A program made the position numbers and the translations under genes. The notes beneath the pieces were generated by a model that was given only the letters and a program-made list of their open reading frames with translations, made no database searches and was not told where the DNA came from. A stretch of DNA of 64,000 nt from Nesterenkonia populi (GTDB taxonomy: Bacteria; Actinomycetota; Actinomycetes; Actinomycetales; Micrococcaceae), in assembly GCF_007994735.1 (NCBI RefSeq), contig NZ_VOIL01000001.1, positions 124,001 to 188,000 of the forward strand, in the 5' to 3' direction. This document shows positions 30,596-50,174 of this stretch, piece after piece; positions within the stretch are counted from its first letter, which is position 1, and every line of letters begins with the position of its first letter.

Positions 30596-31978
30596 TCAGG
30601 ACCAGTCGACGCTGAGGTACTGGATTTCGGTGAACTCCTCGATGCCGAAGGAACCGCCCTCACGGCCAATTCCGGCCTGCTTGACTCCACCGAAGGGTGC
30701 GGAGGGGTCCGAGACGATCCCTCGGTTGACGCCTACCATTCCCGCCTCCAGACGTTCACCGATGTGCATCGCCCGGCGGAGGCTGCCTGCATAGACGTAG
30801 GAGGCCAGCCCTACCTCAGCTGCGTTGGCCTCAGCGATGACCTCATCCTCCTCGCTCCAGGTGGCCACTGGTGCCACCGGCCCGAAGATCTCCTCGGAGA
30901 GGATCTCCGCGCGCGAAGGGACTCCGGTCAGCAGGGTAGGCGCGAGGAAAGCTTTCCCCGCCCCCTGCGGCAGCTGGGCCCGAGCCGCAATGCTGCCGCC
31001 CTGCTCCAGCGCCTTGTCTATCAGCGCCTGTATCTCCTGTGCTGCCTCAGCGTGAATGACGGGGCCGATCTGGTATCCCTCGACGGGGTTGCCCACTGTG
31101 AGAGCGCTGATCCGCTGGCCGAATTTGTCGGCGAACTCTTCGGCAACGGCATCGTGGACATAGAACCGGTTAGCGGCAGTGCAGGCCTGACCACCGTTGC
31201 GGAACTTGGCGAGCATCGCCCCTTGCACGGCCGCGTCAATGTCGGCGTCAGCGGTGATGATGAAGGGCGCGTTACCGCCCAGCTCCATGGATGTGTTGAC
31301 CACTCTCTCCGAGCACTGCGCAAGCAGCCGCCGGCCCACTCCGGTGGACCCGGTGAAGGAGAGTTTGCGCACCCGTTCATCCTGCAACCACGCAGTGACC
31401 ACTCGACTAGCCTTGGATGTGGCCGCGACCTGGACCACCCCGTCAGGCACTCCCGCCTTGGCGAGGATCTCGGCGATGGCGAAGGCTGTCAGCGGGGTTT
31501 CACTCGCCGGCTTCAGCAGCACCGAGCATCCGGCGGCCAGCGCCGGGCCGATCTTGCGGGTGGCCATGGCCGCGGGGAAATTCCAGGGAGTAATGAGCAC
31601 GGCCACGCCCACCGGGTGGCGGGTGACGACGTTGCGCACTCCCCCGGCAGGAGCTTCCCCGTAGTATCCGGGGGCGCGCACTGCTTCCTCGGCGTACCAG
31701 CGGAAGAACTCGGAGGCGTAAGCGACCTCCGCTGCAGCGTCGGACCGTGATTTGCCGTTCTCGGCGACAATGAGATCGCGCAGCCGCTCCGCATCGTCAT
31801 TCATCCTCTGATAAGCATCAATGAGCACTTCGGACCGGTGCCGCGGGGAGGTCCTCCACCACTGCTCGAAGGCAGCTTGGGCGGTGTTCACCAGAGCGGC
31901 GGCCTCTTCACCTGTGAAGTCGTGGACTTCATCGATGGGCTCCCCGGTGGCTGGGTTGAAAACTGTCAGCGTGCTCAT
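30596..31978 (-). CDS. gabD: Succinate-semialdehyde dehydrogenase, NAD(P)-dependent
   Basis: 460-residue aldehyde dehydrogenase. The general base E232 lies in MELGGNAPF and the nucleophile C266 in FRNGGQACTAANRFYV, a pattern close to succinate-semialdehyde dehydrogenases (FRN.GQ.C..ANR). In this operon it would oxidise the succinate semialdehyde released by the HpaI aldolase, giving succinate for the TCA cycle. It is the last gene of the minus-strand array, coupled by an ATGA overlap to the flavoprotein hydroxylase. Substrate assignment rests on motif and context. Confidence 0.85.
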   Translation of the reverse strand: MSTLTVFNPATGEPIDEVHDFTGEEAAALVNTAQAAFEQWWRTSPRHRSEVLIDAYQRMNDDAERLRDLIVAENGKSRSDAAAEVAYASEFFRWYAEEAVRAPGYYGEAPAGGVRNVVTRHPVGVAVLITPWNFPAAMATRKIGPALAAGCSVLLKPASETPLTAFAIAEILAKAGVPDGVVQVAATSKASRVVTAWLQDERVRKLSFTGSTGVGRRLLAQCSERVVNTSMELGGNAPFIITADADIDAAVQGAMLAKFRNGGQACTAANRFYVHDAVAEEFADKFGQRISALTVGNPVEGYQIGPVIHAEAAQEIQALIDKALEQGGSIAARAQLPQGAGKAFLAPTLLTGVPSRAEILSEEIFGPVAPVATWSEEDEVIAEANAAEVGLASYVYAGSLRRAMHIGERLEAGMVGVNRGIVSDPSAPFGGVKQAGIGREGGSFGIEEFTEIQYLSVDWS

Positions 31979-33870
31979 GCGGAGGGCTCCGAGAAGATCG
32001 CGGAGAAGAAGTCGGCCAGCGCAGCAGTGTCCTCAAGCGGAAGCACATGCGCCACGTACTGGTCAGGGCGGACGATGACGACGGCTCCGTCACGGCTGAC
32101 GCTGCGTTCGGAGAAAATGTCTTCGCCGTGTCCTGTGGCGAAGACCTTCTCTCGATAGTTCAGCTCGAAGGGCCCCACCTGCGGCAGGAAGGCCTCAGGG
32201 ACCTGGGGGATCTCGATCTCTCGGTAGTTCTGCTGATAGATGACTTTGACATCAAAGATGACGTCGCCGTCGCTCTCCTCGGGGGTATAGCGGATCACCG
32301 GGGAATCCGGGGATGTGCTTGCCCACTCCGCCCAGCCGTTGAGCGCGGAATCCTGTCCGGCTGCCGGGGAGTCGGCGAATACGTAGATCCGCCAGCGGCC
32401 ATCGGCGGTGGCGTGGTGCCCCAAGTGCATTGGGTTGCTGTCGCATACGCGGGAGACAATCGCCGATTTGAACCGTTTGCCCACCATGAAACCCTCGGCC
32501 AGCGCCTGGTGCTCGGATGTTGAGGTGATCATCGACGGCTCGTACTGAGTCATGAACCCCGCGGGGAATTCGATGGTCTTGACGTAGAACTCTTCGACGG
32601 CGGCGGGGTCGTCCAGCTCCTCCGGCTTCTTCGCCATGAGAGCGGACCACTCCTTGTCGAACTCGATGAGGTTCTGAGCGATGGTCTGCCGCTCTGCGGA
32701 GTAGGTGCTCAGCAGGGACTCCGGGCTGCGGCCGGTGAGCACCTGGCCGAGCTTCCAGGCCAGGTTGAACCCGTCCTGCATGGAGACGTTCATCCCCTGC
32801 CCGGCCTTGGCGCTGTGGGTATGGCAGGCGTCCCCGGCGATGAATACCCGCGGGGCCCGGGTTCCGGCGGCCTCCTCTGGCACGTCGTCGAACTTGTCGG
32901 TCATCCGATGCCCCACCTCGTAGACGCTGTGCCAGGCGACGTGCTTCACGTCCAGGGTGTAGGGGTGCAGGATCGAGTTTGCCTTGGCGATGACCTCGTC
33001 CAAGCTGGTCTCGCGGACCTTACCACCGTCGTTGGGGGCGACCTCGCCCAGGTCCACGTACATGCGAAAGAGGTGCCCGCCCTCCCGGGGGATGTGGAGG
33101 ATGTTGCCGCCGGAACGGGACTGGATGGCGCATTTGAGGCGGATGTCGGGGAAGTCGGTGGTGGCCAGCACGTCCATCACACCCCAGGCGTGGTTGGCCT
33201 GGTCGCCTTTGAGCTTGCGCCCGATGGCTGCGCGAACCCCGCTGCGGGCCCCGTCGGCGCCCAGCACGTACTTGGCCCGGACGGTGCGCTCCTGGCCTTC
33301 ATGTGTTCCGGTGAGATGCCTGACCCGCACGCTGACGGGATGCTCGTGGTCAGCCTCGAGCGCCAGACCGAGGAATTCGACGCCGTAGTCAGGGCTCATC
33401 CGGGACGGCGAGCGCTGCATGTGCTCGGCGAAGTAGTCCAGCACCCTCGCCTGGTTGACGATCAGGTGCGGGAACTCGCTGATGCCGTGCTCGTCGTCGA
33501 GGGGCCGGGCTGTGCGGACGATGTGGTCCGGGTTCTCAGGGTCCGGCTTCCAGAACGTCATCTCGGAGATCCGGTAGGCCTCGTTGATGATCTCGTCGGC
33601 GAACCCGAACGCCTGGAACGTCTCGACGCTGCGGGCCTGGATCCCGTCGGCCTGCCCGACCTCGAGCCGACCGGGGCGGCGTTCGATGATTCGGGTGTGG
33701 ATCTCGGGGAACTGCGCCAGCTGTGCTGCGGCGATCATCCCGGCCGGACCGCTGCCGACGATCAGGACGTCCATCTCGTCGGGGAGCTCCTGGGGCCGGT
33801 CGAGTCCGATCCCGGCAGGTGCCTGGACGCGGGGGTCTGCTGAGACGTAGCCGTGGTGGTGGAAGTGCAC
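31975..33870 (-). CDS. FAD-dependent aromatic hydroxylase, phenol 2-monooxygenase / MobA type
   Basis: 631 residues in three parts: an FAD domain with GSGPAG at 39-44, the DG motif in VLGADGARSGVR and the GD motif in FIAGDACHTHSAKAGQGMN; a substrate domain; and a C-terminal thioredoxin-like domain (last about 170 residues) as in phenol hydroxylase and 3-hydroxybenzoate 4-hydroxylase (MobA). It would use NAD(P)H and O2 to add a hydroxyl ortho to a phenolic OH, producing a catechol. In this operon the likely product is homoprotocatechuate from a hydroxyphenylacetate, taking the place of the absent HpaBC pair. GTG start with a weak ribosome site. Exact substrate unproven. Confidence 0.8.
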   Translation of the reverse strand: MHFHHHGYVSADPRVQAPAGIGLDRPQELPDEMDVLIVGSGPAGMIAAAQLAQFPEIHTRIIERRPGRLEVGQADGIQARSVETFQAFGFADEIINEAYRISEMTFWKPDPENPDHIVRTARPLDDEHGISEFPHLIVNQARVLDYFAEHMQRSPSRMSPDYGVEFLGLALEADHEHPVSVRVRHLTGTHEGQERTVRAKYVLGADGARSGVRAAIGRKLKGDQANHAWGVMDVLATTDFPDIRLKCAIQSRSGGNILHIPREGGHLFRMYVDLGEVAPNDGGKVRETSLDEVIAKANSILHPYTLDVKHVAWHSVYEVGHRMTDKFDDVPEEAAGTRAPRVFIAGDACHTHSAKAGQGMNVSMQDGFNLAWKLGQVLTGRSPESLLSTYSAERQTIAQNLIEFDKEWSALMAKKPEELDDPAAVEEFYVKTIEFPAGFMTQYEPSMITSTSEHQALAEGFMVGKRFKSAIVSRVCDSNPMHLGHHATADGRWRIYVFADSPAAGQDSALNGWAEWASTSPDSPVIRYTPEESDGDVIFDVKVIYQQNYREIEIPQVPEAFLPQVGPFELNYREKVFATGHGEDIFSERSVSRDGAVVIVRPDQYVAHVLPLEDTAALADFFSAIFSEPSA

Positions 33871-33903: not shown

Positions 33904-34695
33904 TCAGTCGCCGGATGCGCGGGGCGGGATGAAGTCGGCGGCGAGCTTCTCGGAGCCGCGGGCGAGCAGGGCCACGTCGGCGCCGACCAACATCCAGGAG
34001 GCTCCTGCCTCGGCGTATTCGCGCGCCACGGCGGGGTCGAAGGCGTTGACGCCGACGGGCTTGCCTGCCGCGGCGATCTCCTCAAAGGCTCCCTTCACGG
34101 CGCTGACGACGTCGGGGTGGGCCTGCTGCCCGATGAGTCCCATGGAGGCGGCCAGGTCGCTAGGGCCGAGGAAGATCCCGGCAATGCCTTCGACCTCTGC
34201 GATCGTCCGGGCGTTGCGGATGCCCTCGAGGGTTTCGACCTGCACGAAGACCGAGACGTGTTCGGCTGCGTTCTGCAGGTAGTTCTCCACCCGGTTCCAG
34301 CGTGCGGAGCGGGCCAGGGCGCTGCCCACGCCTCGGATGCCCGCCGGCGGGTAGTGCGCCGCGGAGGCGACTTCCCGTGCCTGCTCTGCGGTGGAGACCA
34401 TCGGCACCAGGATGTTCTGGGGGCCGAGGTCCAGCACCTGCTTGATGGTGACCGGGTCCCCCCAGGGCACCCGGACCACCGGGGTGGACGCGTATCCGGA
34501 GACGGCATGCAGCTGGGCGAGCACCGAATCCAGCCCGTTGGGGGCGTGCTCCATGTCGATGAGCAGCCAGTCCAGGCCCGAGCCTGCCATGATCTCGGCG
34601 ACCACCGGTGAGCCGGAGCAGATCCATCCGCCGAAGAGGGTCCGTGGGGACTGGGAGATCTGCTCCCCAAGTGTCGGCGTCAGTCGAATCGGCAC
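33904..34695 (-). CDS. hpaI: 4-hydroxy-2-oxoheptanedioate aldolase (HpaI)
   Basis: 263 residues, class II HpcH/HpaI aldolase cleaving 4-hydroxy-2-oxoheptane-1,7-dioate into pyruvate and succinate semialdehyde. H50, R75, metal ligands E154 (VQVETLEG) and D180 (LGPSDLAASMG) fall exactly five positions after H45, R70, E149 and D175 of the E. coli enzyme as I recall it. The start chosen is GTG at 34695, overlapping the hydratase gene by 16 bases; it gives the family length. Confidence 0.93.
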   Translation of the reverse strand: MPIRLTPTLGEQISQSPRTLFGGWICSGSPVVAEIMAGSGLDWLLIDMEHAPNGLDSVLAQLHAVSGYASTPVVRVPWGDPVTIKQVLDLGPQNILVPMVSTAEQAREVASAAHYPPAGIRGVGSALARSARWNRVENYLQNAAEHVSVFVQVETLEGIRNARTIAEVEGIAGIFLGPSDLAASMGLIGQQAHPDVVSAVKGAFEEIAAAGKPVGVNAFDPAVAREYAEAGASWMLVGADVALLARGSEKLAADFIPPRASGD

Positions 34696-35465
34696 GTCAC
34701 GGTTCCCATCTGCCCGTAGTCGCACAGCACCGTGTCGCCGGGCTGGACCCACATCGGACGGGTGAAGGACCCGGCAAGGACGATCTCCCCGGCGGAGAGG
34801 GAGTCTCCGTGCTGGGCAAGCTTATTGGCCAGCCACGCCACCCCGTTCGCGGGGTGGTTCAGCACGGCCGCAGCGACTCCGGACTCCTCGATGGTCTCGT
34901 TGCGGTACAGCAGCGCCGAGACCCACCGGAGGTCGACGTCGTGGGGCTTGGTCGGGTTACCTCCGTAGACCATCGCACCCATGGCGGCATTGTCACTGAC
35001 GGTGTCGACGATGGTGCGGCCCTGCATCTCGATGCGGCTGGAGAGGATCTCCAGCGCCGGGATGACGTATTCGGTGGCGCGCATCACGTCGAAGACCGTG
35101 ACCTCGGGACCGGCGAGGCCCTCACTGAGCACGAAGGCCAGCTCCACTTCGATCCGGACGTTGGAGAACCGGCTGTGCTCGATCACTGCGCCATTCTCAT
35201 AGACCATGTCGGCGAAGACCGCCCCGTAGTCCGGCTCAGTGATGCCCGTGGCCGCCTGCATCACTTTGGAGGTCAACCCGATCTTGCGCCCGACCGGACG
35301 ACGACCGGCCTCGATGCGTCGCCTGCGCCATTCGTTCTGCACGGCATAGGAATCCTCGACCGTCATCTCCGGGTAGCGTGCGGTGAGGAGCTTGATGGTG
35401 CTGCGACTCTGCTCGGCCTCAGCGAGTTCGTCGGCGATGGCGGTGATCTTCTCAGATGTCAGCAT
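34680..35465 (-). CDS. hpaH: 2-oxo-hept-4-ene-1,7-dioate hydratase (HpaH)
   Basis: 261 residues of the FAH-fold hydratase family (MhpD/HpaH). [17 protein letters not shown] and the acidic metal pair in [11 protein letters not shown] are characteristic. It adds water to 2-oxohept-4-enedioate to make the substrate of HpaI, whose gene overlaps its 3' end. The ribosome site GGAAGGA is good. MhpD-like enzymes for other side chains share the fold, but adjacency to hpaD and hpaI fixes the likely role. Confidence 0.9.
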
Positions 35466-35480: not shown

Positions 35481-36596
35481 CTACAGCTGGTGTCCCAGCT
35501 TGTACTCGCCGAGTTTCCAATGAGGCATGGAGTCTTCATCGCCTTTACGGGTGTAGGAGAACCCGTCGGCGCCGATGGTGACCTCCATCTCAGAGTCATC
35601 AGTCCGCACCTGGGCCGGCACGGGGTTCCCCTCGAGGTCCAGCACGGTGGATGCCTCGGTGTACCAGGAGGGGACCACCGGGGTCCCCCACCAATCGCGG
35701 CGCTGGTTGTCGTGAACGTCCCAGGTCACCACCGGGTTGTCCGGATCCCCGGTGTAGTAGTCCTGGGTGTAGATCTCCACCCGATGGCCGTCAGGGTCGC
35801 GCAGGTAGAGATAGAAAGCGTTGGAGACCCCGTGCCGGCCGGGGCCGCGCTCAATGTGGTCGGACAGCCGCAGGGCGCCGAGCTTGTCGCAGATCGCCAG
35901 GATGTTGTGCTTCTCGTGGGTGGCGAAGGCGACGTGGTGCATCCGCGGGCCGGCCCCGCCGGTCATGGCGGTGTCGTGGACGGTCGGCTTGCGCCGCATC
36001 CAGGCGGCGTAGGTGGTGCCTTCATCGTCCTGGATGTCCTCGGTGACCCGGAACCCGAGGTCCTCCATGTGCCGCACGGCCTTGGGAACGTCCGGGTAGA
36101 CCTGGTTGAAGTGGTCCAGGCGAACCAGCGCCCCGGGGGTGTAGAGGTCGTAGCGCCAGGCCAGCCGCTCCACGTGGTCAACTTCATAGAAGAACTCCAG
36201 CGGGAAGCCCAGCGGGTCCTGGACCCTGACGGCCTCACCGATGCCCTTGAGGAACCCATCCTTGCTGCGCTTCACCGGGCAGCCGAGCTCCTCGTAGAAG
36301 GCCACGGCCTTGTCCAGCTCCTCGGGACTGCGGACCCGGTAGGAGAACACGGCGACAGCGGGCTGCTCGCCCTGGCGCAGCACCAGGTTGTGGTGGATGA
36401 ACTCCTCCATGGAGCGCAGGTAGATGGTGGTGTCGTCCTCGTGGGTGACCACCAGGTTCAGCACATCCACGTAGAAGTCCCGGGAGCGCTTCAGGTCGGT
36501 GACCACCAACTCCATGTACGCGCAGCGCACCACGTCAGGTGCAGGCGAAGAGGGGGTGGGGACGACGTCGTCGGATGCGGTGGGGTTCTGGGTCAT
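35481..36596 (-). CDS. hpaD: Homoprotocatechuate (3,4-dihydroxyphenylacetate) 2,3-dioxygenase
   Basis: 371 residues of two vicinal-oxygen-chelate modules, an extradiol ring-cleaving enzyme. Against Brevibacterium fuscum HPCD (from memory, offset 7) all key residues are kept: metal ligands H162, H221, E274; second-sphere N164, catalytic H207, Y264 and R250. Long stretches such as IYLRS.EEFIHHNLVLRQG and GPRMHHVAFATHEKHNI are almost the same. It opens homoprotocatechuate next to the hydroxyls, giving 5-carboxymethyl-2-hydroxymuconate semialdehyde. Fe(II) or Mn(II) cannot be told apart from sequence, because HPCD and MndD share ligands. The best-supported anchor for the pathway. Confidence 0.96.
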   Translation of the reverse strand: MTQNPTASDDVVPTPSSPAPDVVRCAYMELVVTDLKRSRDFYVDVLNLVVTHEDDTTIYLRSMEEFIHHNLVLRQGEQPAVAVFSYRVRSPEELDKAVAFYEELGCPVKRSKDGFLKGIGEAVRVQDPLGFPLEFFYEVDHVERLAWRYDLYTPGALVRLDHFNQVYPDVPKAVRHMEDLGFRVTEDIQDDEGTTYAAWMRRKPTVHDTAMTGGAGPRMHHVAFATHEKHNILAICDKLGALRLSDHIERGPGRHGVSNAFYLYLRDPDGHRVEIYTQDYYTGDPDNPVVTWDVHDNQRRDWWGTPVVPSWYTEASTVLDLEGNPVPAQVRTDDSEMEVTIGADGFSYTRKGDEDSMPHWKLGEYKLGHQL

Positions 36597-36629: not shown

Positions 36630-38135
36630 TCAGTCGGCTTTGCCGAACACGGGGTTGTGAACTTCGCCGAGGTTGATGTGTACGGCCTGCTGATCGGTGT
36701 AGAAGTCGATCGAGCGGTAGCCGCCCTCGTGCCCGAGGCCGGAAGCTTTGACTCCGCCGAAGGGAGTGCGCAGGTCACGCACGTTGTTGGAGTTCAGCCA
36801 CACCATTCCGGCCTCGACGTTCTGGGCGAAGTTGTGGGAGCGCTTCAGGTCGTTGGTCCAGATGTAGGCAGCCAGCCCGTACTTGGTGTCGTTGGCCAGC
36901 TCTAGCGCTTCTTCGTCGGTGTCGAAGGGGGTGATGGCGACCACGGGCCCGAAGATCTCCTCCTGGAAGATCCGGGCGTCACGGGGCACGTCGGCGAATA
37001 CGGTGGGGTTGACGAAGTTTCCGGACTCCAGGCCCTCGGGACGGTCGCCACCTGCGACGAGCCGGCCCTCGGTCTTGCCCAGCTCGACGTAGCTCATCAC
37101 CTTCTCGAAGTGCTCGGGGTGGACCAGCGCGCCGACCTCGGTGGCGGGCTCGTGAGGCAGTCCAACCTTGACCCTCTTGGCCTGGGCGGCGTAGCGCTCC
37201 ACGAACTCGTCGTAGATGCTGCGCTGGACCAGGATGCGCGAGCCCGCGGTGCAGCGCTCGCCGTTGAGCGAGAAGACGCCGAAAATGGTGGCGTTGATGG
37301 CGGCTTCCAGGTCCGCGTCCTCGAACACCACGGCCGGCGACTTCCCGCCCAGCTCCATGGAGAGACCCTTCAGGTGCGGGGCAGCGTTGCCGAAGATGAT
37401 CTGGCCGGTCCGGGACTCACCGGTGAAGGAGATCAGCGGCACGTCAAGGTGCTTGACCAGCGCGTCGCCGGCCTCCTCGCCGATGCCGTTGACCAGGTTG
37501 AACACACCCTTGGGCAGTCCGGCCTCCTCGAAGATCCCGGCCCACAGGCCTGCTGAGAGCGGGGTGAACTCCGCCGGCTTGAGCACCACGGAGTTACCGG
37601 TGGCCAGAGCGGGTGCCAGTTTCCAGCTCGAAAGCATGAACGGGGTGTTCCAGGGAGTGATGAGCCCGGCCACGCCGATCGGCTTGCGGTTGACGTAGTT
37701 GGCCTGGCGCCCGGGGACTTTGAAGGCGTCGTCGTGCTGGGCGACGATGAGATCGGCGAAGAAGCGGAAGTTCTCGGCCGCGCGCTTGCCCTGGCTGCGG
37801 GCCTGAGTAATGGGCAGACCGGTGTCGAAGGTCTCCAGCTCAGCCAGCCGGGCGCCGCGCTCCTCGACGATGTCGGCAATGCGGTGCAGGACCCGGGAGC
37901 GCTCCCTGGGCAGGGCGTTGGCCCAGGCGCCCTCGTCGAAGGCTCGCTGGGCGGCGACCACGGCCCGGTCGATGTCTTCTTTCTGGCCGGCAGCCCCCTG
38001 GATGTAGACCTCGTTGGTAACGGGGTTGAGGACATCGAAGGTGGCGCCGCCGGCGGAGTCGACATACTCGCCGCCAATGTAGTGCTGGATCCGCTCGGGC
38101 AGCTCAGCGGGGACGGGGGAGTTGAACGAGCTCAT
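36630..38135 (-). CDS. hpaE: 5-carboxymethyl-2-hydroxymuconate semialdehyde dehydrogenase (HpaE)
   Basis: 501-residue NAD-dependent aldehyde dehydrogenase. General base E261 in MELGGKSPAVVFEDAD and nucleophile C295 in FSLNGERCTAGSR; the NGERC variant is typical of HpaE-type enzymes. It oxidises the semialdehyde made by HpaD. The ATG at 38135 has GAGGAGA upstream and overlaps the preceding stop (ATGA); a longer in-frame extension has no ribosome site. Gene order next to hpaD supports the assignment. Confidence 0.92.
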   Translation of the reverse strand: MSSFNSPVPAELPERIQHYIGGEYVDSAGGATFDVLNPVTNEVYIQGAAGQKEDIDRAVVAAQRAFDEGAWANALPRERSRVLHRIADIVEERGARLAELETFDTGLPITQARSQGKRAAENFRFFADLIVAQHDDAFKVPGRQANYVNRKPIGVAGLITPWNTPFMLSSWKLAPALATGNSVVLKPAEFTPLSAGLWAGIFEEAGLPKGVFNLVNGIGEEAGDALVKHLDVPLISFTGESRTGQIIFGNAAPHLKGLSMELGGKSPAVVFEDADLEAAINATIFGVFSLNGERCTAGSRILVQRSIYDEFVERYAAQAKRVKVGLPHEPATEVGALVHPEHFEKVMSYVELGKTEGRLVAGGDRPEGLESGNFVNPTVFADVPRDARIFQEEIFGPVVAITPFDTDEEALELANDTKYGLAAYIWTNDLKRSHNFAQNVEAGMVWLNSNNVRDLRTPFGGVKASGLGHEGGYRSIDFYTDQQAVHINLGEVHNPVFGKAD

Positions 38136-42385: not shown

Positions 42386-43885
42386 CTAGCCGGCGCCTTC
42401 GGCGACGTAGCTGGGCAGCAGCAGCACCAGGTCGGGCCAGAAGAAGAACAGAGCGATCAGCGCCAGGTCGACCACGAAGAACGGCACGATGCCGCGGAAG
42501 ACGGTCTCGCTCGGCAGCCCGGTGGTTCCGGCGACGACGAAGGCGTTGATCCCCACCGGCGGGGTGACCATGCCGATTTCGATGAGCTTGACGATGAGGA
42601 TGCCCAGCCAGATGGCGTCGAAGCCGAATTCGGTGGCGATGGGCAGCAGCAGCGGCACGGAGATGACGAGGATCGAGAGGGACTCCAGCATCATGCCCAG
42701 CGGGATGAGCGCCAGCAGCAGCAGAGCCATGACCACCATGGGCGGCAGATTCACGCTCATCACCGCGTCGGTGATCATCTGCGGCACCCGGGCGGCGACG
42801 AAGAAGGCGGTGAGGATGCCTGAACCGATGACGATGAAGAAAACCATCGCCGTGGTCGAGGCGGTGTCCCGCAGCGCTCCGGCAATGCCGGCGGAAATGC
42901 CGCGCAGCCCGGTCTTGCGCAGCTCGAAGAGCAGGATGAGCACCGCGGCGATGGCACCGAAGGCTGCCGACTCGGTGGCGGTGAAGTAGCCGGAGTACAT
43001 GCCGCCGAGCACGATGCAGAACAGCGCGGCGATGTAGAAGAGGCCGCGCCAGGGCAGCTCTTTCAGCGGGGTCGGCTTGCGCGAGGCGGCACCCTGCGGC
43101 GGTACTGCCTCGACAGACTCCGGCCCGGCGGGCGGCTCCTCAGTGGCGATGGCGGCCGCGGCCACCGTCGCCGGCTCTTCCGCACTGCCCGCCGTCGTCG
43201 TCTTGGCGGTCTTGGCGGCCGCGACGTGCTCGCTGACGGCGTGACGCAGATGCGGGGGGCGGATGACGCCTTTGCGCTTAAGTCGCTGCCCGGCGATGAC
43301 AAGGTAGGCAGAGTAGGCGATGGCGGTCAGCACGCCGGGCACGATGCCCGCGGCGAGCATCTGGCCCACCGACTGCTGGGCGAGGATCGCGTAGAGAACC
43401 AGGAAGGTGCTCGGCGGGATCATTGAGCCCAGCGTCCCGGCCACGGCCACCAGTGCGGTCGCCAGGGAGGCTGGGTACCCGGCGGCGCGCATCTCTGCCA
43501 CCGACAGCCGGGCCATCGTCGCCGCGGTGCCGATGCTCGAGCCCGAGACAGCGGAGAACCCGGCGCTGGCGGCGACGGTGGCCACGCCGAGGCCGCCGGG
43601 GAAGCGGCCGAGGACGCTGTCGGCGATCCGGAAGACGTACTCGGCGACGTGGGCGCGCACCGCGAACATGCCCATGAGGATGAACATCGGGATGATCGTC
43701 AGCCCGAAGCTGGCGGTCTGACCGAAAGGTTCGGAGCCCAGCAGGTTGGTGGTGTAGTCGAAGCTGTGCAGCAGCAGGAGCCCGACCGCGCCGGAGCCGC
43801 CCAGGGCGATGGCCACCGGGACCCGGAACAGCAGCAGGGCCACCAGCAGCACGAGCACGGCGGTGATAATCATTCCGGTGGTCAT
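42386..43885 (-). CDS. dctM: TRAP transporter large permease (DctM type)
   Basis: 499 residues with about twelve helices, sodium-coupled importer subunit. GSSIGTAATMARLSVAEMRAAGYP and a second hairpin-type repeat (GMVTPPVGINAFVVAG) are DctM hallmarks. A cytoplasmic insertion of about 60 residues rich in Ala, Thr, Pro and Glu (from about 200 to 270) separates the two halves and is longer than in typical DctM proteins of about 430. Coupled by ATGA overlap to DctQ. Confidence 0.92.
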   Translation of the reverse strand: MTTGMIITAVLVLLVALLLFRVPVAIALGGSGAVGLLLLHSFDYTTNLLGSEPFGQTASFGLTIIPMFILMGMFAVRAHVAEYVFRIADSVLGRFPGGLGVATVAASAGFSAVSGSSIGTAATMARLSVAEMRAAGYPASLATALVAVAGTLGSMIPPSTFLVLYAILAQQSVGQMLAAGIVPGVLTAIAYSAYLVIAGQRLKRKGVIRPPHLRHAVSEHVAAAKTAKTTTAGSAEEPATVAAAAIATEEPPAGPESVEAVPPQGAASRKPTPLKELPWRGLFYIAALFCIVLGGMYSGYFTATESAAFGAIAAVLILLFELRKTGLRGISAGIAGALRDTASTTAMVFFIVIGSGILTAFFVAARVPQMITDAVMSVNLPPMVVMALLLLALIPLGMMLESLSILVISVPLLLPIATEFGFDAIWLGILIVKLIEIGMVTPPVGINAFVVAGTTGLPSETVFRGIVPFFVVDLALIALFFFWPDLVLLLPSYVAEGAG

Positions 43886-44511
43886 CGGGTGCCTCCCGCG
43901 GGGATCGTCTCGGCCGCCGAGGCGCCGGGGACCTGCTTGTCGAGGGCCTCGAGGCTCTCCTCAGTCTGGGCCGCGACCCTCTCCTGCTGGACCAGCACGG
44001 CCTGAAGCTCGCTCTCCGGCCCCATGGGGAGGCGTCCGGCCACCGAACGCGCCAGATTGAGCAGCGCCACCAGCAGCAGGGCGACGAGCCCGGCGACGAT
44101 GACCCAGCGCATCGGATAGATGGGCCAGCGCACCAGGCCGAACCGCTCCTCGCGCATCGTGGTCGAATCGATGGCGCGCAGCACAGTGGCGTAGAGCAGC
44201 CAGCTGATGAACACCGTCGAGAGCGCCCAGACCACGATCTGCACCAAACGGGTGGCGGCCTCGTGGAAGCGGTCGACGAGCAGAGTCACGCAGACGTGCT
44301 CGCCTTTGACCCCGGCCCAGGCGAGGCCGAAGAACACACTGATGACCAGGCTGGTCTCCGCAAGTTCGAGCATGCCGCGCACGCTGGCTCCGGTGGTGTT
44401 GCGCACGATGACATCGCAGGCGATGGCGACGACCATCACCACGATGGCGCCGGCGGAGAGCACGGCGAGCACGCGGGCTATCTGGCGGACTGCGGTCTCA
44501 AGGATCGTCAT
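43882..44511 (-). CDS. dctQ: TRAP transporter small permease (DctQ type)
   Basis: 209 residues, four membrane helices in the middle 150 residues, VFFGLAWAGVKGEHVCVTLLVD being the conserved DctQ segment. A C-terminal tail of about 45 Glu/Gln-rich residues follows, somewhat long for the family. Ribosome site GAGGAA six bases before the ATG. It pairs with DctM to form the membrane part of the importer. Confidence 0.88.
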   Translation of the reverse strand: MTILETAVRQIARVLAVLSAGAIVVMVVAIACDVIVRNTTGASVRGMLELAETSLVISVFFGLAWAGVKGEHVCVTLLVDRFHEAATRLVQIVVWALSTVFISWLLYATVLRAIDSTTMREERFGLVRWPIYPMRWVIVAGLVALLLVALLNLARSVAGRLPMGPESELQAVLVQQERVAAQTEESLEALDKQVPGASAAETIPAGGTR

Positions 44512-44521: not shown

Positions 44522-45784
44522 TCATTTCACGGCGGCGAACGCGCGCAGATCCAACTCTGGGTCGGCCAGCTGCTCGCGGGTGGGTGGGACGGGGGCCGAG
44601 AGAAGGGCCCGGGCGGCCCGGTGGTCACGAGGGGAGTTGATGGATTCGACGGCGGCGAGCACGCCGTCGCGGAAGGCCAGCACGGAGAACTTCCCGCTGG
44701 CGGGGTCACCGTGGAGGACGGTCTCGTCCCCGGGGATGATGAGGCCGGCGATCTGAATGCGGACGGGACCCTGGTTGGACCAGAACCACGGCAGGCTGCA
44801 GTAGTCGCCGGGGTCTTCGGCGCTTGCGGCGGTGAGCGCCGTCGCCAGGTATCGGGCCTGGTCGGTGGCGTTCTGCACCGATTCCAGGCGAGTCATCGAG
44901 CGACTGTGGGCGTTGGGATAGTTCGCGCAGTCGCCGATGGCCCAGATGCGCGGGTCCTCGGTACGCAGCCGGGCGTCGACGAGGATGCCGTTGTCCACGG
45001 CCAGTCCTGCCGCCTCGGCGAGCTCGGTGTTAGGGGCCACGCCCACGCCGATGAGCACTGTGTCGGCCGGGTACCGGGTCCCGGAGCTGCCGAGGGCGAC
45101 GGCGACCGAGCCGGCTTCGCCCTCGATACGCTCGATCCCTTCGCCGAGCCGCAGGTCGATGCCGGCGGTCCGGTGAGTCTCGGCTATGTGCCCGCTGCTC
45201 AGCGGTGACAGCGCCCGGCCCATGGGGCGTTCGGCGAACTCGAGGACGGTGACGTTCTTCCCCAGTCCGTTAGCGCAGGCGGCGACTTCCAGCCCGATGA
45301 ATCCGGCGCCGACGATGACGACGTTCTCCGCGTGGCTCAGTGCGGTCTGCAGGACTGCGGCGTCGTCGAAGGTTCGCAGGGCCTGCACTCCGATGAGCTC
45401 GGCACCAACGACGGGCAGGCTGCGGTTGCGGGCCCCGGTGGCCAGCACCATGTGGGTGTAGTCGAGGTCGCTGCCGTCGGAGAGCCGCACCCGACGAGCG
45501 GCCCGATCGATGTGCTCGGCGGTGACCCCGAAGCGGGCATCGACGTCGTTGGCCTCGAAGAAGCCGGGCCCGCGCAGGGGCAGGACTTCGAGGACGGCGT
45601 CGGTGAGCTTCAGGTCCTTCGACAGCGGGGGCCGCTGGTAGGGCGCGTGGGTCTCGGCGCAGACCAGGGTGAGGCGGCCGGGATAGCCCTGCTGGCGCAG
45701 TGCGTCGGCCAGTTCGACGCTGGCCAGGCCTCCGCCAATGATGACGACGTGGTCCTCGCCGGTCAGCGGTGTCGTGGTGTCCAT
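44522..45784 (-). CDS. Ferredoxin reductase, FAD-dependent, rhodocoxin-reductase type
   Basis: 420 residues. FAD site VVIIGGGLASVELADALRQQ at the N-terminus, NADH site VVIVGAGFIGLEVAA near 150, WAIGDCANYPN before the C-terminal reductase domain. This is the partner class of P450-type [2Fe-2S] ferredoxins (PdR, ThcD). It would pass electrons from NAD(P)H to the adjacent ferredoxin and on to the P450. ATG at 45784 lies one base after the ferredoxin stop; upstream extension in the same frame overlaps the ferredoxin and is not used. Confidence 0.92.
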   Translation of the reverse strand: MDTTTPLTGEDHVVIIGGGLASVELADALRQQGYPGRLTLVCAETHAPYQRPPLSKDLKLTDAVLEVLPLRGPGFFEANDVDARFGVTAEHIDRAARRVRLSDGSDLDYTHMVLATGARNRSLPVVGAELIGVQALRTFDDAAVLQTALSHAENVVIVGAGFIGLEVAACANGLGKNVTVLEFAERPMGRALSPLSSGHIAETHRTAGIDLRLGEGIERIEGEAGSVAVALGSSGTRYPADTVLIGVGVAPNTELAEAAGLAVDNGILVDARLRTEDPRIWAIGDCANYPNAHSRSMTRLESVQNATDQARYLATALTAASAEDPGDYCSLPWFWSNQGPVRIQIAGLIIPGDETVLHGDPASGKFSVLAFRDGVLAAVESINSPRDHRAARALLSAPVPPTREQLADPELDLRAFAAVK

Positions 45785-45785: not shown

Positions 45786-46112
45786 TCAGACCTGTCTTTC
45801 GGGGATATCGACGGCGATCTCGTCGAGGTTTTCGCCGATGGTGATCTGGCAGCCCAGCCGGGAGCGTTCTTCGTCGAGCTCGGCGGCTGCCTCTTCCAGC
45901 ATCTCTTCCTCCTCCTCAGACTTCTCCGGCAGCTGGTCGAGGTACTCGTTGCGGACGTAGACGTGGCAGGTGGCGCACATCGCCTGGCCGCCGCATTCGC
46001 CGACGATGCCGGGTACGCCGTTGCGCAGCGCGGTCTGCATGATGGGGGCAGGTGTCTCGAGCTCAACGGTCTGGCTGCTGCCACCGGGCTGGTGGTAGGT
46101 GATGCGGGGCAC
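45786..46112 (-). CDS. [2Fe-2S] ferredoxin, putidaredoxin/rhodocoxin type
   Basis: 108 residues. Cluster cysteines C40, C46, C49 and C88 in the C-x5-C-x2-C-x38-C spacing of adrenodoxin-type ferredoxins (GECGGQAMCATCHVYV, RLGCQI). An unusually acidic stretch (EKSEEEEEMLEEAAAELDEE) in 63-82 lies at the helix that docks to reductase and P450. GTG start with GGAGACCCC before it. Direct electron donor for the P450 encoded 45 bases upstream. Confidence 0.94.
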   Translation of the reverse strand: MPRITYHQPGGSSQTVELETPAPIMQTALRNGVPGIVGECGGQAMCATCHVYVRNEYLDQLPEKSEEEEEMLEEAAAELDEERSRLGCQITIGENLDEIAVDIPERQV

Positions 46113-46157
46113 GGGGTCTCCTGGTGGTGGTGGGTGCTTGCCGGGGCCGTCTGGCGG

Positions 46158-47405
46158 TCAGTCCGTGTCCCAGACCACCGGCAGCGAGAGCATGCCGCGG
46201 AAGACCCATCCGCCAGCGACGCCGGGGCGTTCAGGGTCGCGGCGCAGGCCGGGCAGGCGCTGGTCGATCTGGGGCAGGGCTACGCGGGACACCTGGGCGC
46301 GGGCCGCCCAGGCTCCGGCGCAGTAGTGGGTGCCGGCGCCGAAGGCCAGGTGGGGCTTCTGCTCGCGGTTGGTGTCGAAGGCTTCGGGGTCCTCGAACTG
46401 GGCAGGGTCGCGGTTGGCGGCGCCGACGTTGACGCCGAGTTTGGCTCCGGCAGGAAGCCGCACGTCCTCCAGGACGGTCTCGCGGGTGGTCTGGCGGGAG
46501 TACATGCCGATGGGCGCGACCCAGCGAACAGCTTCGTCGAAGGCCCGTTCCCAGCCGGACGGGCCGGCCTCGCGGACCTGGACGAGCTGGCCGGGACGTT
46601 CGAGCAGGGCCCAGAGCAGCGTCCCCATCGCGTCGCGGGGCTCATTGAATCCGCCACCGATGGTCATTTTCACGTTAGCCCGGATGGATTGCAGCGGCAT
46701 GCCGGACTCGGCGAGTTGGGCCAGCAGGGTGTGGCCTTCGCCGGTGGGGAGAACCTCGTCGATGGCGTCGTCGACTTCGTCGAAGGCTTTCTCGCCAAGC
46801 CGCCAAATCTCAGGGTCGTCGGCGTAGTTTCCGGTGGCGTTGATCATATCCTGGCTCCATCGGCGGATGTCCTGCCAGGTGGCGTTGCGGAGCCCAAGGA
46901 TCTCGCGGAGGTTCTCGGCGGTGTAAGGCTCGGCGAATCCGGTGTGGAAGTCGGCGCGCCTCACCGGGCGGCCATCGATGGTGTCCTCCTCGGCGGAGGC
47001 GATGAACTCGGCGAGGTAGTGCTCGTAGTTGCGCTGGAACACCTCGTTCCACACGGTCTTGATGGCTTTGGGCTTGAGCACTCCGCCCAGGGCGGCGCGC
47101 TCGACGGCGTGCTCGGGGTCGTCTTTGCGGAGCATCGAATGTCCCATGGCCCGCTTCATCAGCGAGCCCTCTTCGTCGGCGGTGTAAGTCTCGGGGTCGT
47201 GGTCGATGGTGTGAATGGCGCTGAAACCCACGACGAGGTAGCGGTCGATGGCGGGCACCCAGTGGACCGGCGCGATCTCGCGCAGCCGGCGGTAGATGGG
47301 ATACGGGTCGGCGTAGAGCTGGTCGATGGCGACGCCGTCGGCCACCGGCGCCTCGATGGGGGCGGTGTTCGCGGCCCAGGTCTCGGGGGTGGGTGTGATC
47401 GTCAT
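46158..47405 (-). CDS. Cytochrome P450, GcoA/CYP255-like
   Basis: 415 residues. Heme loop FGAGTHYCAG (355-364, axial C362), ExxR at E291-R294. In helix I the usual acid-threonine pair is absent: the sequence is GGGFNEPRDAM (250-260), so Asn-Glu replaces Asp-Thr. The same region of GcoA, the aromatic O-demethylase, is also QE followed by Pro as I recall it, and both share a FRG..SL..VW ending. O-dealkylation of an aromatic ether is the leading guess. ATG at 47405 with AGGAGG six bases upstream; a longer in-frame start lacks a ribosome site. A CRP/GlxR-like site lies 23 bases upstream. Confidence 0.9.
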   Translation of the reverse strand: MTITPTPETWAANTAPIEAPVADGVAIDQLYADPYPIYRRLREIAPVHWVPAIDRYLVVGFSAIHTIDHDPETYTADEEGSLMKRAMGHSMLRKDDPEHAVERAALGGVLKPKAIKTVWNEVFQRNYEHYLAEFIASAEEDTIDGRPVRRADFHTGFAEPYTAENLREILGLRNATWQDIRRWSQDMINATGNYADDPEIWRLGEKAFDEVDDAIDEVLPTGEGHTLLAQLAESGMPLQSIRANVKMTIGGGFNEPRDAMGTLLWALLERPGQLVQVREAGPSGWERAFDEAVRWVAPIGMYSRQTTRETVLEDVRLPAGAKLGVNVGAANRDPAQFEDPEAFDTNREQKPHLAFGAGTHYCAGAWAARAQVSRVALPQIDQRLPGLRRDPERPGVAGGWVFRGMLSLPVVWDTD

Positions 47406-47427
47406 CGTGAGCCTCCTCGCTCTAAAA

Positions 47428-47445
47428 TGTGATTCACAGCACATT
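47428..47445. promoter_or_regulatory. CRP/GlxR-like site upstream of the P450 operon
   Basis: TGTGATTCACAGCACATT fits TGTGA-N6-(T/G)CACA. It shares 17 of 20 positions with the site upstream of the AraC-type gene when read with flanks. ATGTG also recurs in the same minus-strand orientation at 47474-47478 and 47454-47458, 20 bases apart, as in AraC-type half-sites. Confidence 0.65.
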
Positions 47446-47606
47446 CGTGCGCTCACATCAGTATGGCGTGGATCACATAACCGGGTAAAACGGTTTGATT
47501 CGGGGTATATCCGCGGTAGAACCGTGATTGTCAGCAAGGTCCGCAGATGCGCCTGCCCGGGCCGCTGGCGCGGTCCCGGGCAGACGGTCTCAGCAGCTGC
47601 AGCCGA

Positions 47607-48743
47607 TCACTGGGCGGCCTGGTCAATGCAGCTGCTCGTGGCGTCTTCGGCGTCGGGGTCGGTGTGCTCCTCGAGGCTAGCCAGGTAGTCCTCGAGGACC
47701 TGGTCGGCGTTCTCCAGCCCCTGGTCGGCGGCCAGCGCGACCCACTCCTCCTGGAGACTGTCGCCGGTCCCCTCGGCCCAGGCGTTGGAAGCATCCTCGT
47801 CCCAGCGGGTAAAGCTCTCGAGGTTCTCAGCCTCGAGCATCTGGGGGCACTGTTCGATGGCCTGCTCGTAGAAGATCCCAGCTCCGGCGCCGCTGGAGAG
47901 GTCGGCGGCGACGTCGTCGACCACCTGCTTGAGCTCGTCGTCGAGCTCCTCGTAGGCGTCGAGGTTCATCCACATGCCGAAGGCTGAGTACTCGCCGACA
48001 CCCGGGTCGGTCCAGTGGGGCAGCAGCTCATTGAGCTGGTAGTTGACAGGGAAGTCGATGCTGGCGGCCACAGAGTCGATGACGCCGCGCTCGATGCCTT
48101 CGAAGACTTCGTTGGCGGCCAGGGAGATGACGTTGACCCCCTGGTTCTCGTAGAGGGAGATGGCCAGGGGCCCGGAGGCGCGCAGGGAGAGTCCCGCCAG
48201 GTCTTCGGGCGTTTCCACAGGTTCGTGGGTACCGATGAGCATCCGTCCGACCGGCCAGGTGGCCAGGTGGTGGATATTGTTGCCGGTCATCACTGCCTGG
48301 GCGTCCTCGTTGGTGACGTGCAGCTCGTGCAGGGCCTGGGTGATGGCCTGCCAGTCCTGGCCGATGAAGGGGATTGAGACCATCGACGTCGAGGGGAAGT
48401 AGGCCGGGGTGTAGTCGGGGATGCTCACCCCGAGCTGGGCGCGGCCGTCGCGGACGCAGTCAATGACTTCGACGGCGTCGCAGAGTGAATAAGCCTCGGT
48501 GCGCTCAATCTCGATGCGTCCCTCGCTGCGGGATTCGAGCTCATCGGCGTACCACTCCTGGACCTCGGCACTCGGGGTGCCTTCGGCGGCGGAGGTGACC
48601 AGGGTGAGAGTGACCTCGGGGGCAGCGTCACCTCCGTTGCCCTCCCCACTGTCGTTGCCTTCAACCTCCCCGCCGCAGGCGGCCAGCAGCCCGAGGGCGG
48701 CCACGGCGGTCAGGGACCGGCGGTGCGATGTGCGTGTGACCAT
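47607..48743 (-). CDS. TRAP transporter substrate-binding lipoprotein (DctP type), copy 2
   Basis: 378 residues. Lipobox LAAC (C23), then a DctP-fold domain clearly paralogous to the protein at 41162-42322: shared LATWPVGRM, RGVIDSVAAS, VNYQLNELLPHWTDPG and ESFTRWDEDA, plus the Cys pair (SLCDAVEVIDCVRDGRAQLG). No second DctQM pair accompanies it, so it probably feeds the same permease with another ligand or affinity, or acts as a sensor. Good AAAGGA site. Separated from the P450 gene by 201 bases containing that operon's regulatory region. Confidence 0.88.
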   Translation of the reverse strand: MVTRTSHRRSLTAVAALGLLAACGGEVEGNDSGEGNGGDAAPEVTLTLVTSAAEGTPSAEVQEWYADELESRSEGRIEIERTEAYSLCDAVEVIDCVRDGRAQLGVSIPDYTPAYFPSTSMVSIPFIGQDWQAITQALHELHVTNEDAQAVMTGNNIHHLATWPVGRMLIGTHEPVETPEDLAGLSLRASGPLAISLYENQGVNVISLAANEVFEGIERGVIDSVAASIDFPVNYQLNELLPHWTDPGVGEYSAFGMWMNLDAYEELDDELKQVVDDVAADLSSGAGAGIFYEQAIEQCPQMLEAENLESFTRWDEDASNAWAEGTGDSLQEEWVALAADQGLENADQVLEDYLASLEEHTDPDAEDATSSCIDQAAQ

Positions 48744-48807: not shown

Positions 48808-49761
48808 TCAGCCCTCTCCCCAGAAGCGGTAGACCTCGGTGTGGTCGGTGTTTCCCAGTGCGGCTTCAGCGGCGCCGAACTGGGCGGAGACGGCCTGGCA
48901 GACCGGGGCGTGGTGGCCGACGGTGCGCTGCAGATTCTCGGCGATCCGCACGTCCTTGGCTATCAGCGGCAGGGCGAATCCACTGGCGTAGCGTCCTTCG
49001 ACCACGTGGGGACCCAGCACGTGGGTGGTGATGAAGCTCTGTCCGGTGGAGTCGTTGAGGACATCGACCATCACGGCGGGATCGAGGCCGAAGCGACCGC
49101 CGGCAGTGAGGGCCTCGGAGGTCGCAGCGACGGAGGAGGCGGCGACAAAGTTGTTCAATGCTTTCATCGCGTGCCCGGTGCCGAGCCGGCCGGTGCGGTA
49201 GATGGCCCGGCTCATCGCTTCGATAACAGGGGCGGACCGTTCGGCGGCTGCCTCCTCGTCGGCGCCCATCATGATGGCCAGGGTTCCGGCGATGGCCCGT
49301 TCCCGGGCGCCGGAGACCGGTGCGTCGACCATCGGGATGCCGTGGGCGGCCAGCTGCTTGCCGGTGGCAACGGTCTCGGTGGGGTCGGAGGAACTCATAT
49401 CGACCACCACGGCGCCGGAGCGCAAGGGAATCTTCAGCTGGCCGTCCTCGTCGAGCAGCGCGGCGCGGACGATGGCACTGGTGGGCAGCATGAGCACGAT
49501 GACGTCGCGGTCGGCGAGATCGTCGGCATCTGAAGCGGGGTGGACGCGGGCGGGGGTTTCCTCTGGACGGCTGCTGAGCCTCTCAGCGACTTCGCGGGTG
49601 CGGTCGGGGTCGACGTCGTGGACCCGCAGGTCGTACCCGGCGGCAACGATATTTGCCGCCATCGGCTCACCCATGGTGCCCAGGCCGATGAAACCGACAG
49701 CCAGGGTCTTCTGCTGATCCGTGCCGTCCTGGCGGGCGGCTTCCTGCTCGGCGGCGCTCAT
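48808..49761 (-). CDS. NAD(P)-dependent beta-hydroxyacid dehydrogenase (HIBADH/GarR family)
   Basis: 317 residues. N-terminal dinucleotide site VGFIGLGTMGEPMAANIV, substrate loop VDAPVSGARERAIAGTLAIM, and the catalytic Lys in GTGHAMKALNNFVAA, in the standard order of 3-hydroxyisobutyrate and tartronate-semialdehyde dehydrogenases. Residues 1-20 form a polar extension. The substrate here is unknown; a beta-hydroxy acid from side-chain handling would fit. Its ATG overlaps the stop of the carboxymuconolactone-decarboxylase-like gene (ATGA). Confidence 0.85.
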   Translation of the reverse strand: MSAAEQEAARQDGTDQQKTLAVGFIGLGTMGEPMAANIVAAGYDLRVHDVDPDRTREVAERLSSRPEETPARVHPASDADDLADRDVIVLMLPTSAIVRAALLDEDGQLKIPLRSGAVVVDMSSSDPTETVATGKQLAAHGIPMVDAPVSGARERAIAGTLAIMMGADEEAAAERSAPVIEAMSRAIYRTGRLGTGHAMKALNNFVAASSVAATSEALTAGGRFGLDPAVMVDVLNDSTGQSFITTHVLGPHVVEGRYASGFALPLIAKDVRIAENLQRTVGHHAPVCQAVSAQFGAAEAALGNTDHTEVYRFWGEG

Positions 49762-50174
49762 TTCTGCTGCCCTTCCCCGTCGAGATGCAGGTCGATGCCC
49801 TTCTCGGCGAAGACCTCCTCGAGGGCGCGCAGGCCCTCGACGGCAGCGGGGATGCCGGCATAGAGCGTGGCGTGCACAGCGATCTCGCGCAGCTGGACAG
49901 GGGTGACCCCGTTGGCGAGGGCGCCGCGAGCGTGGATGCGGGTCTCGTGGGCTTTGCCGGTGGCGACCATCATGGCGAAGGTGATCTTGCTGCGGTCGAG
50001 GGTCTCCAGACCGGGGCGCTGCCAGATGTCGCCGAAGCAGTAGCGGGTGACAAAGTCCTGGATCTTGTCGTTGAGGCCGGTGGTGTGCTCAGTCTGGTCT
50101 TCGGCTCCCTCGTGGCCGAACATGTGGCGGCGCTGGGCGATGCCGACCTCATAGAGCTCGTCTTTGGTGACCAT
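49758..50174 (-). CDS. Carboxymuconolactone decarboxylase family protein
   Basis: 138 residues, all-alpha CMD fold. The motif region KAHETRIHARGALANGVTPV and REIAVHATLYAGIPAAVEGL matches PcaC-type proteins, lacking the CxxC of the AhpD peroxidase branch. True PcaC acts in the beta-ketoadipate pathway, but no pcaGHB genes are here, so another lactone or oxo-acid decarboxylation is more likely. First gene of the long minus-strand array; AAAGGAGT precedes the ATG at 50174. Divergent from the aldehyde dehydrogenase across 268 regulatory bases. Confidence 0.82.
   Translation of the reverse strand: MVTKDELYEVGIAQRRHMFGHEGAEDQTEHTTGLNDKIQDFVTRYCFGDIWQRPGLETLDRSKITFAMMVATGKAHETRIHARGALANGVTPVQLREIAVHATLYAGIPAAVEGLRALEEVFAEKGIDLHLDGEGQQK

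Follow-up and report, generated by a model that had tools for sequence, protein, structure and literature searches.

The gene cluster considered here is a run of 17 genes in a 64,000-nucleotide stretch of Nesterenkonia populi DNA (contig NZ_VOIL01000001.1, positions 124,001 to 188,000; hereafter the window). Its closest described relatives are the hpa operons for meta cleavage of homoprotocatechuate (HPC), that is 3,4-dihydroxyphenylacetate, and cytochrome P450 systems of papaverine breakdown. The P450 enzymes of the Klenk 2019 study, CYP1232A24 and CYP1232F1 of Arthrobacter, reportedly act on arylacetates, demethylating 3,4-dimethoxyphenylacetate and homovanillate. The redox partners of the papaverine P450s are a flavodoxin and a flavodoxin reductase, as stated in part of a review (PMC9687028). 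Arthrobacter sp. Rue61a grows on 4-hydroxyphenylacetate, HPC and tyrosine, and meta cleavage of HPC has been proposed for it (PMC3534580, in part). In Rhodococcus ruber R1, a Rieske vanillate O-demethylase left homovanillate and 3-methoxyphenylacetate unconverted, and according to the accessible part of the same study no Rhodococcus tested grew on either compound (PMC9867520). To judge from these non-users, little seems to be known about the genes that break down homovanillate.

On balance, we lean towards the view that the locus of N. populi funnels arylacetate-type phenolics, among them 2-arylethanols and methoxyphenylacetates, into the HPC meta pathway; gene content, order and conservation are observed, and every substrate as well as the operon limits are inferred. 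A TRAP importer (DctQM with DctP2) would bring in the substrate. A GMC oxidoreductase and a divergently encoded aldehyde dehydrogenase would together oxidise a 2-arylethanol of the kind of tyrosol or homovanillyl alcohol to the arylacetate. A CYP1232-like P450 system of three components would demethylate a methoxyphenylacetate, for example homovanillate to HPC or 3-methoxyphenylacetate to 3-hydroxyphenylacetate, with formaldehyde set free by the O-demethylation. A MobA-like flavin hydroxylase would convert monohydroxyphenylacetate to HPC, whose ring would be opened by HpaD and the resulting semialdehyde oxidised by HpaE. Subsequently, an FAH-RraA fusion protein would isomerise and decarboxylate, HpaH would hydrate, HpaI would cleave to pyruvate and succinic semialdehyde, and GabD would yield succinate.

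The homoprotocatechuate core

Our analysis revealed 17 open reading frames (ORFs), all on the minus strand and each without an internal stop, from an ATG at 50174 (Shine-Dalgarno sequence, 5/6 matches) down to the stop codon of gabD at 30596, the same limits as in the preliminary description of this DNA. As that description had stated, the genes share one strand and overlap in places; our count is 6 of 16 junctions. Codon-position GC alone recovered 16 of the 17 as longest frames, with a third-position GC of 0.77-0.92; the ferredoxin frame, present in the ORF list, was hidden in that scan by an over-long reductase frame. The host genome comprises 2.55 Mb and is 99.3% complete, and the accessory genes do not stand out by GC content (0.65-0.69 vs 0.67). 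The core genes and gabD are as follows.

38132..39586, minus strand: FAH-RraA fusion, HpaG equivalent (NF009399, 822.8 bits, over cut-off; PF01557 and PF03737)
36630..38135, minus strand: HpaE, 5-carboxymethyl-2-hydroxymuconate semialdehyde (CHMS) dehydrogenase (TIGR02299, 651.6 bits, cut-off 638.35, passed)
35481..36596, minus strand: HpaD, homoprotocatechuate 2,3-dioxygenase (TIGR02295, 432.5 bits, cut-off 321.4, passed)
34680..35465, minus strand: HpaH, 2-oxohept-3-ene-1,7-dioate (OHED) hydratase (TIGR02312, 359.7 bits, cut-off 351.5, passed)
33904..34695, minus strand: HpaI-type aldolase (TIGR02311 best family, under cut-off)
31975..33870, minus strand: single-component, MobA-like flavin phenol hydroxylase (FADOH), candidate hydroxyphenylacetate hydroxylase (NF006144, 1042.2 bits, over cut-off; 2dkh, E=4e-193)
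30596..31978, minus strand: GabD, succinic semialdehyde dehydrogenase-like (TIGR01780, the succinic semialdehyde dehydrogenase (SSADH) family, best, under cut-off)

The cut-offs for HpaD, HpaE and HpaH are of NCBIfam equivalog level, and their being passed bears out the earlier assignment of the lower half of the cluster to the HPC meta pathway. In a sample of 30 Nesterenkonia genomes, N. populi included, hpaD is present at no less than 82% identity in 25, again counting N. populi, and its locus was examined in 21 of the 24 other genomes (G001, G021 and G008 were left out). The order FAH-RraA, HpaE, HpaD, HpaH, HpaI, flavin hydroxylase is kept in all 21, also in a locus where HpaE and HpaD are 1.8 kb apart (L097), and gabD follows immediately in eight of them. 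The HpaI-type gene, whose product scores 308.1 bits against the TIGR02311 cut-off of 368.8, has the same position in every one. These five hpa genes and the flavin hydroxylase are thus a core of the genus.

The flavin hydroxylase belongs to this core because it follows HpaI in 21/21 loci, and its earlier placement in an upper half of the pathway was for that reason rejected. HpaB, the usual 4-hydroxyphenylacetate hydroxylase, was detected (PF03241; control positive in 4/14 genomes) in 4/30 genomes of the genus, and neither HpaB nor HpaBC had a match in the N. populi genome; the flavin enzyme is therefore the likely hydroxyphenylacetate hydroxylase. It has FAD_binding_3 and Phe_hydrox_dim domains, and its closest PDB match is 2dkh, the 3-hydroxybenzoate hydroxylase MobA. 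Residues D75, H135, K247 and Y271 of 2dkh, which we take to be active-site residues, are all conserved in the alignment. The operon context suggests hydroxyphenylacetate, not 3-hydroxybenzoate, as substrate, and the enzyme probably makes HPC from the 3- or the 4-hydroxy acid.

The fusion protein occupies the position of HpaG in all 21 loci. Its residues 7-215 match residues 217-422 of 1gtt (E. coli HpcE), the lobe assigned as the decarboxylase (PMC12718150, in part). Looking for a two-lobed HpaG or a split HpaG1/G2, we found one FAH domain and one RraA domain; to judge from these domains, the other HpaG lobe is missing and an RraA-like domain takes its place. No isomerase for 5-carboxymethyl-2-hydroxymuconate (CHM) was seen among the 17 genes in the matches listed (Pfam matches for 10 genes, NCBIfam matches for 16). 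Relatives of the fusion are numerous, many of them from Actinobacteria by name: 6,878 of 7,996 scored at E<=1e-100, and all 120 listed (P0121-P0240) carry both domains. This points to a widespread HpaG having an RraA domain instead of one lobe; the main text of PMC12718150 contains neither "RraA" nor "actinobacter".

In one of the other loci (L095, genome G004), a GntR/FCD regulator gene lies between FAH-RraA and HpaE (8383-9045), where the window has no gene. The core of that genome is flanked (L095:10800-18368) by genes for a copper amine oxidase, AraC and TetR regulators, an aldehyde dehydrogenase 78% identical to that of the window and an amino-acid permease, a set that is likely a feeder for tyramine or phenethylamine. 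A tyramine route in N. populi was considered and dropped, no copper amine oxidase having been found in its genome (control positive in 1/14 genomes).

The P450 trio

Upstream in the same run lie the P450 and its two partners.

46158..47405, minus strand: cytochrome P450, CYP1232-like (PF00067; 6g71, E=7e-120; heme motif FGAGTHYCAG and ExxR)
45786..46112, minus strand: [2Fe-2S] ferredoxin (PF00111; C-x5-C-x2-C...C)
44522..45784, minus strand: FAD ferredoxin reductase, FdR (PF07992 and PF14759)

The best PDB match of the P450 is 6g71 (50.4% identity), presumably CYP1232A24, the Arthrobacter homovanillate O-demethylase of papaverine degradation. It is followed by 8u09 (1e-44) and 9ia1 (1e-40), two entries titled simply "Cytochrome P450", and by GcoA (~1e-37) and CYP199A4 (~1e-29). 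By rule, a P450 sharing more than about 40% identity with a named member belongs to the family of the latter. The features of a class I system are present, namely the heme cysteine motif, ExxR, and a separate ferredoxin and FAD reductase. The acid-alcohol pair of helix I, [AG]Gx[DE]T, is absent; GGGFNEPRD stands in its place (residues 250-258; window positions 46632-46658), and the stretch N254 to D258 shows no variation among the 41 sequences aligned, 40 of which were taken from 119 other listed proteins.

In the tree, the P450s of the window and of N. sedimenti form a clade of their own (100/100); they are the closest pair, and both stand at hpa loci. Long branches are those of L006, L010, L011 and L165, and 6g71 was flagged as long too. 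P450 relatives with identities of 57% or more occur in 3/30 genomes of the genus: N. populi itself, N. sedimenti (G020, 81%) and G012 (57%). The N. sedimenti trio lies 5-9 kb from the FAH-RraA, HpaE and HpaD genes, making it the one case among the 21 other loci in which the trio is near hpa. The P450 of G012 falls in a different clade, and hpaD of that genome is elsewhere on the chromosome.

More widely, a phylum sample of 396 genomes gave at least two matches at E<=1e-90, one of them the window itself; this is a floor, four candidates per genome having been scored. Among plasmids, 56 records carry a related P450, all below 60% identity, and hpa genes are absent from the (incomplete) annotation of the three P450-bearing records inspected. 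On two Rhodococcus plasmids (L206, L207), related P450-ferredoxin-reductase trios, together with a LysR gene, stand at the head of clusters that contain CMD and FAH-type hydrolase genes. The Micrococcaceae P450s nearest 6g71 (59-63%) sit in long frames of about 1000-1380 aa; in L198:7793-10921 and L065:7083-10517 a flavodoxin follows the P450, and in L198 the two are separated by a pyridine-nucleotide reductase domain.

The GMC oxidoreductase and its paa connection

The side-chain oxidation would involve the following genes, one of them on the opposite strand.

39573..41150, minus strand: GMC oxidoreductase, probable 2-arylethanol oxidiser (PRK02106 and betA, both under cut-off; relatives near paa genes)
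50443..51861, plus strand: divergent arylacetaldehyde dehydrogenase-like protein (PRK13473 and StyD best, under cut-off)
51919..52953, minus strand: AraC regulator, FeaR-like (PRK09685 FeaR, 157 bits, cut-off 199; relatives of 53-57% adjoin GMC in L156, L157 and L158)

In the window, the GMC gene is part of the HPC operon and overlaps the FAH-RraA gene by 14 bp. Relatives with at least 42% identity were found in 12 other genomes of the genus, in nine of which PaaA is no more than about 10 kb away; these distances were derived by hand from two match tables, and separate contigs give none. In the 55-60% group of six, G020, G014 and G017 have GMC close to PaaA and G021, G008 and G013 have it on a separate contig, while all six of the 42-43% group have it close. 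The GMC gene of G014 and G017 adjoins relatives of the aldehyde dehydrogenase (78 and 76%) and of the AraC regulator (57 and 53%), and in G020 it adjoins an AraC relative of 53%. Hidden Markov models confirmed PaaA in G014 and G017, and PaaC, PaaE and PaaZ in G014, where a distance of 16 kb separates GMC from hpaD on a single contig. Aldehyde dehydrogenases of 73-81% occur in 8/21 hpa loci.

The vicinity of PaaA fits a 2-arylethanol side chain, and suggests that GMC and the aldehyde dehydrogenase would convert 2-arylethanol via arylacetaldehyde to arylacetate. Since relatives of all three genes stand beside paa genes, the usual product may be phenylacetate. The first interpretation is borne out in part: its upper half gained support from the 6g71 match and from the neighbours of the GMC relatives and lost the flavin hydroxylase to the core; the aldehyde dehydrogenase that fits it is the divergent one, beyond the limits then drawn.

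Weighing the alternatives

Several observations weigh against the reading that we favour. The hpa core was found near none of 19 other loci with P450 relatives of 56-63% (within ~10 kb), the lone partial echo being an aldehyde dehydrogenase of R. koreensis 37% like HpaE. Neither do hpa genes accompany any of five long-frame, fusion-type P450 loci (L199, which yielded no legible P450 gene, is not in the count) or of four loci with relatives of 42-48%. The structure 6g71 is not an orthologue and groups with the fusion-type P450s (89/79), and a literature search on its code returned nothing relevant to its presumed name and substrate. GMC is near hpa in none of the 21 loci, and in N. sedimenti the two are on different contigs. 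Moreover, PaaA was not found in the N. populi genome, a result that also suits a phenylacetate-hydroxylating P450, discussed below. Finally, the flavin hydroxylase might favour either the 3-hydroxy or the 4-hydroxy acid.

The 19 P450 loci standing apart from hpa would be expected if the locus served hydroxyphenylacetates and tyrosol only and the P450 trio were an insertion with a substrate unrelated to HPC. Similarly, a trio on an R. opacus plasmid lies in a cluster with a gene annotated as protocatechuate 3,4-dioxygenase, and a plasmid cluster of R. pyridinivorans is similarly ordered. However, the two closest P450s are both at hpa loci, and the trio of the window lies inside the operon, 10 bp from the TRAP genes, so that we consider an insertion quite unlikely.

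The P450 could also be a ring hydroxylase of phenylacetate, which we judge unlikely, if not negligibly so. GMC and the aldehyde dehydrogenase would then convert 2-phenylethanol to phenylacetate, the P450 would form 3- or 4-hydroxyphenylacetate and the flavin enzyme HPC, the locus taking the place of paa. PaaA occurs in 23/30 genomes of the genus and not in N. populi, the GMC, aldehyde dehydrogenase and AraC relatives adjoin paa genes in G014 and G017, and the operon of the window contains both the P450 and the GMC gene. On the other hand, N. sedimenti has PaaA and yet carries its P450 near hpa, and the nearest solved relative is presumably a methoxyphenylacetate O-demethylase. That a 2-phenylethanol feeder joined to such a P450 makes a CoA-free aerobic phenylacetate route via HPC in replacement of Paa is rather unlikely.

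Transcription units, importers and the upstream module

The remaining genes of the run, two elements of its widest gap and a neighbouring regulator are listed below.

49758..50174, minus strand: CMD-family protein, 138 aa, opening the accessory unit (PF02627; start set by the Shine-Dalgarno sequence)
48808..49761, minus strand: 3-hydroxyisobutyrate dehydrogenase-like protein, HIBADH (PF03446 and PF14833; under the NCBIfam cut-offs listed)
47607..48743, minus strand: TRAP solute-binding protein DctP1 (PF03480; NF037995 over cut-off)
47550..47586, minus strand: strong GC hairpin, possible terminator (12-nt arms, 92% complementary, 21 nt past DctP1; no U tract)
47427..47478, no strand: inverted repeat ATGTGATTCAC/GTGGATCACAT, candidate operator (11-bp arms, 30 nt between, just upstream of the P450 start)
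43882..44511, minus strand: TRAP small permease DctQ (weak NCBIfam match and position)
42386..43885, minus strand: TRAP large permease DctM (TIGR00786, 268.3 bits, cut-off 268.45)
41162..42322, minus strand: TRAP solute-binding protein DctP2 (NF037995 over cut-off)
53185..54159, plus strand: LysR regulator (a 65% relative adjoins the HPC operon in L091)

Apart from the six overlaps, the junctions are gaps of 1-64 bp, save for 201 bp between DctP1 and the P450; these lengths use hand-chosen starts for FdR, GMC, DctP2 and HpaI. Overlaps of 4 bp join CMD/HIBADH, DctQ/DctM, FAH-RraA/HpaE and FADOH/GabD, and there are longer ones at GMC/FAH-RraA (14 bp) and HpaH/HpaI (16 bp). From the P450 to GabD, 14 genes are connected by 13 junctions with five overlaps and a widest gap of 63 bp, which looks like a single operon. 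The 17 genes are therefore probably two units, CMD-HIBADH-DctP1 being a separate one upstream, and with the 201-bp gap and its hairpin two units are more probable than the one continuous cluster proposed at first.

As RNA, the 201-nt gap has a folding z of -4.1 relative to shuffles. The hairpin at 47550-47586 is a likely terminator, although it has no U tract and was not flagged in the consensus terminator scan, which found no minus-strand site in the gap. Across 46000-52000, scanning gave one promoter-like site (0.4 expected) and three terminator-like sites (2.0 expected), all on the other strand; since the coding strand yielded neither, the scan is neutral on the two-unit view. With up to one mismatch, TGTGATTCACA has three matches in the window against a mean of 0.34 in shuffles, the P450-upstream site counting on both strands; such sites lie at 47428-47438, before the P450 gene, and at 52996-53006, in the AraC-LysR gap.

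The common strand of all 17 genes might suggest a single pathway for the entire 20 kb, CMD-HIBADH-DctP1 included, with one alkoxylated compound as its substrate. The lack of a minus-strand site in the terminator scan of the gap would agree, as would G012, where a P450 trio is likewise near CMD-HIBADH-TRAP. The gap, however, holds the strong hairpin and the inverted repeat, and the G012 P450 comes from another clade. Furthermore, an AraC regulator precedes the CMD-HIBADH pair in G020 (contig 5), G012, G007 and G030, where the stretch also contains TRAP genes, and in G160, where an MFS transporter follows, G095 and G174; in six of these 20-kb stretches (G020 contig 5, G007, G030, G160, G095 and G174) there is no P450. 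The HIBADH gene of G072 had no neighbour labelled as CMD. Because the pair recurs alone with other transporters, and because of the hairpin gap here, a single 20-kb pathway is very improbable. In G007 (L149:3510-13858), TRAP, aldehyde dehydrogenase, FAH-type and 28% HpaD-like genes lie near CMD-HIBADH, possibly a further ring-cleavage cluster associated with the pair.

As for import, relatives of DctP2, DctM and DctQ (77, 74 and 66%) and of the aldehyde dehydrogenase adjoin the hpa operon in G025, a genome without a P450 match; TRAP genes are near hpa in this one of the 21 other loci, which is not the P450-bearing one. Elsewhere, ABC substrate-binding proteins (PF04392) are encoded near the core in L047:7900-8946 (G020) and L088:17372-18445 (G025), and an MFS transporter in L086:13520-15004 (G014). 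The two halves are not conserved together as a whole, an outcome that the preliminary description had itself named as counting against its proposal: the core is found in 21/21 loci, the P450 in 1/21 and GMC in 0/21, and CMD-HIBADH recurs by itself. The P450, TRAP and GMC parts look like exchangeable feeders around the hpa core.

Comparison with known systems

The statement that no described pathway has this gene set agrees, for the set, with our searches of the open-licence literature, in which no paper was recognised as describing it. The chemistry is not wholly undescribed, since Arthrobacter P450s and papaverine breakdown are the subject of a published study (Klenk 2019, doi 10.1093/jb/mvz010). 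The parts are thus known, the combination was not found in print, and the layout is modular. Compared with CYP1232A24 and CYP1232F1, the P450 of the window shows family likeness by its 50.4% identity to 6g71, presumably CYP1232A24, and forms a separate clade. It stands beside an hpa core, whereas the five long-frame relatives inspected do not. The P450 of the window is paired with a [2Fe-2S] ferredoxin and an FAD reductase, in contrast to the flavodoxin system given for the papaverine P450s in part of PMC9687028.

GcoAB, the guaiacol P450 O-demethylase, performs the chemistry proposed here but is a distant homologue with a far weaker match. GcoB is a fused reductase, unlike the separate ferredoxin and reductase genes here. 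The Rieske system of R. ruber R1 represents actinobacterial O-demethylation of methoxylated aromatic acids (PMC9867520, in part), and the Rieske family had no match among the 17 genes in the Pfam and NCBIfam matches listed.

If the favoured reading is right, the operon is a compact gene set leading from import through to pyruvate and succinate, and the genus would combine one ring-cleavage core with species-specific feeders and importers, so far an amine oxidase, an alcohol oxidiser, a P450, and TRAP, ABC and MFS transporters. For Arthrobacter sp. Rue61a, in contrast, no P450 or GMC feeder is mentioned in the accessible part of PMC3534580. Finally, the hpa operons of E. coli and Acinetobacter baumannii TH (PMC12718150, in part) share HpaD, HpaE, HpaH, an HpaI-type aldolase and an SSADH gene with the present locus. 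Among the 17 genes here neither HpaBC nor a CHM isomerase was seen; instead, the locus has a single flavin hydroxylase and an FAH-RraA fusion for HpaG, and P450, TRAP and GMC genes are added to the shared set.

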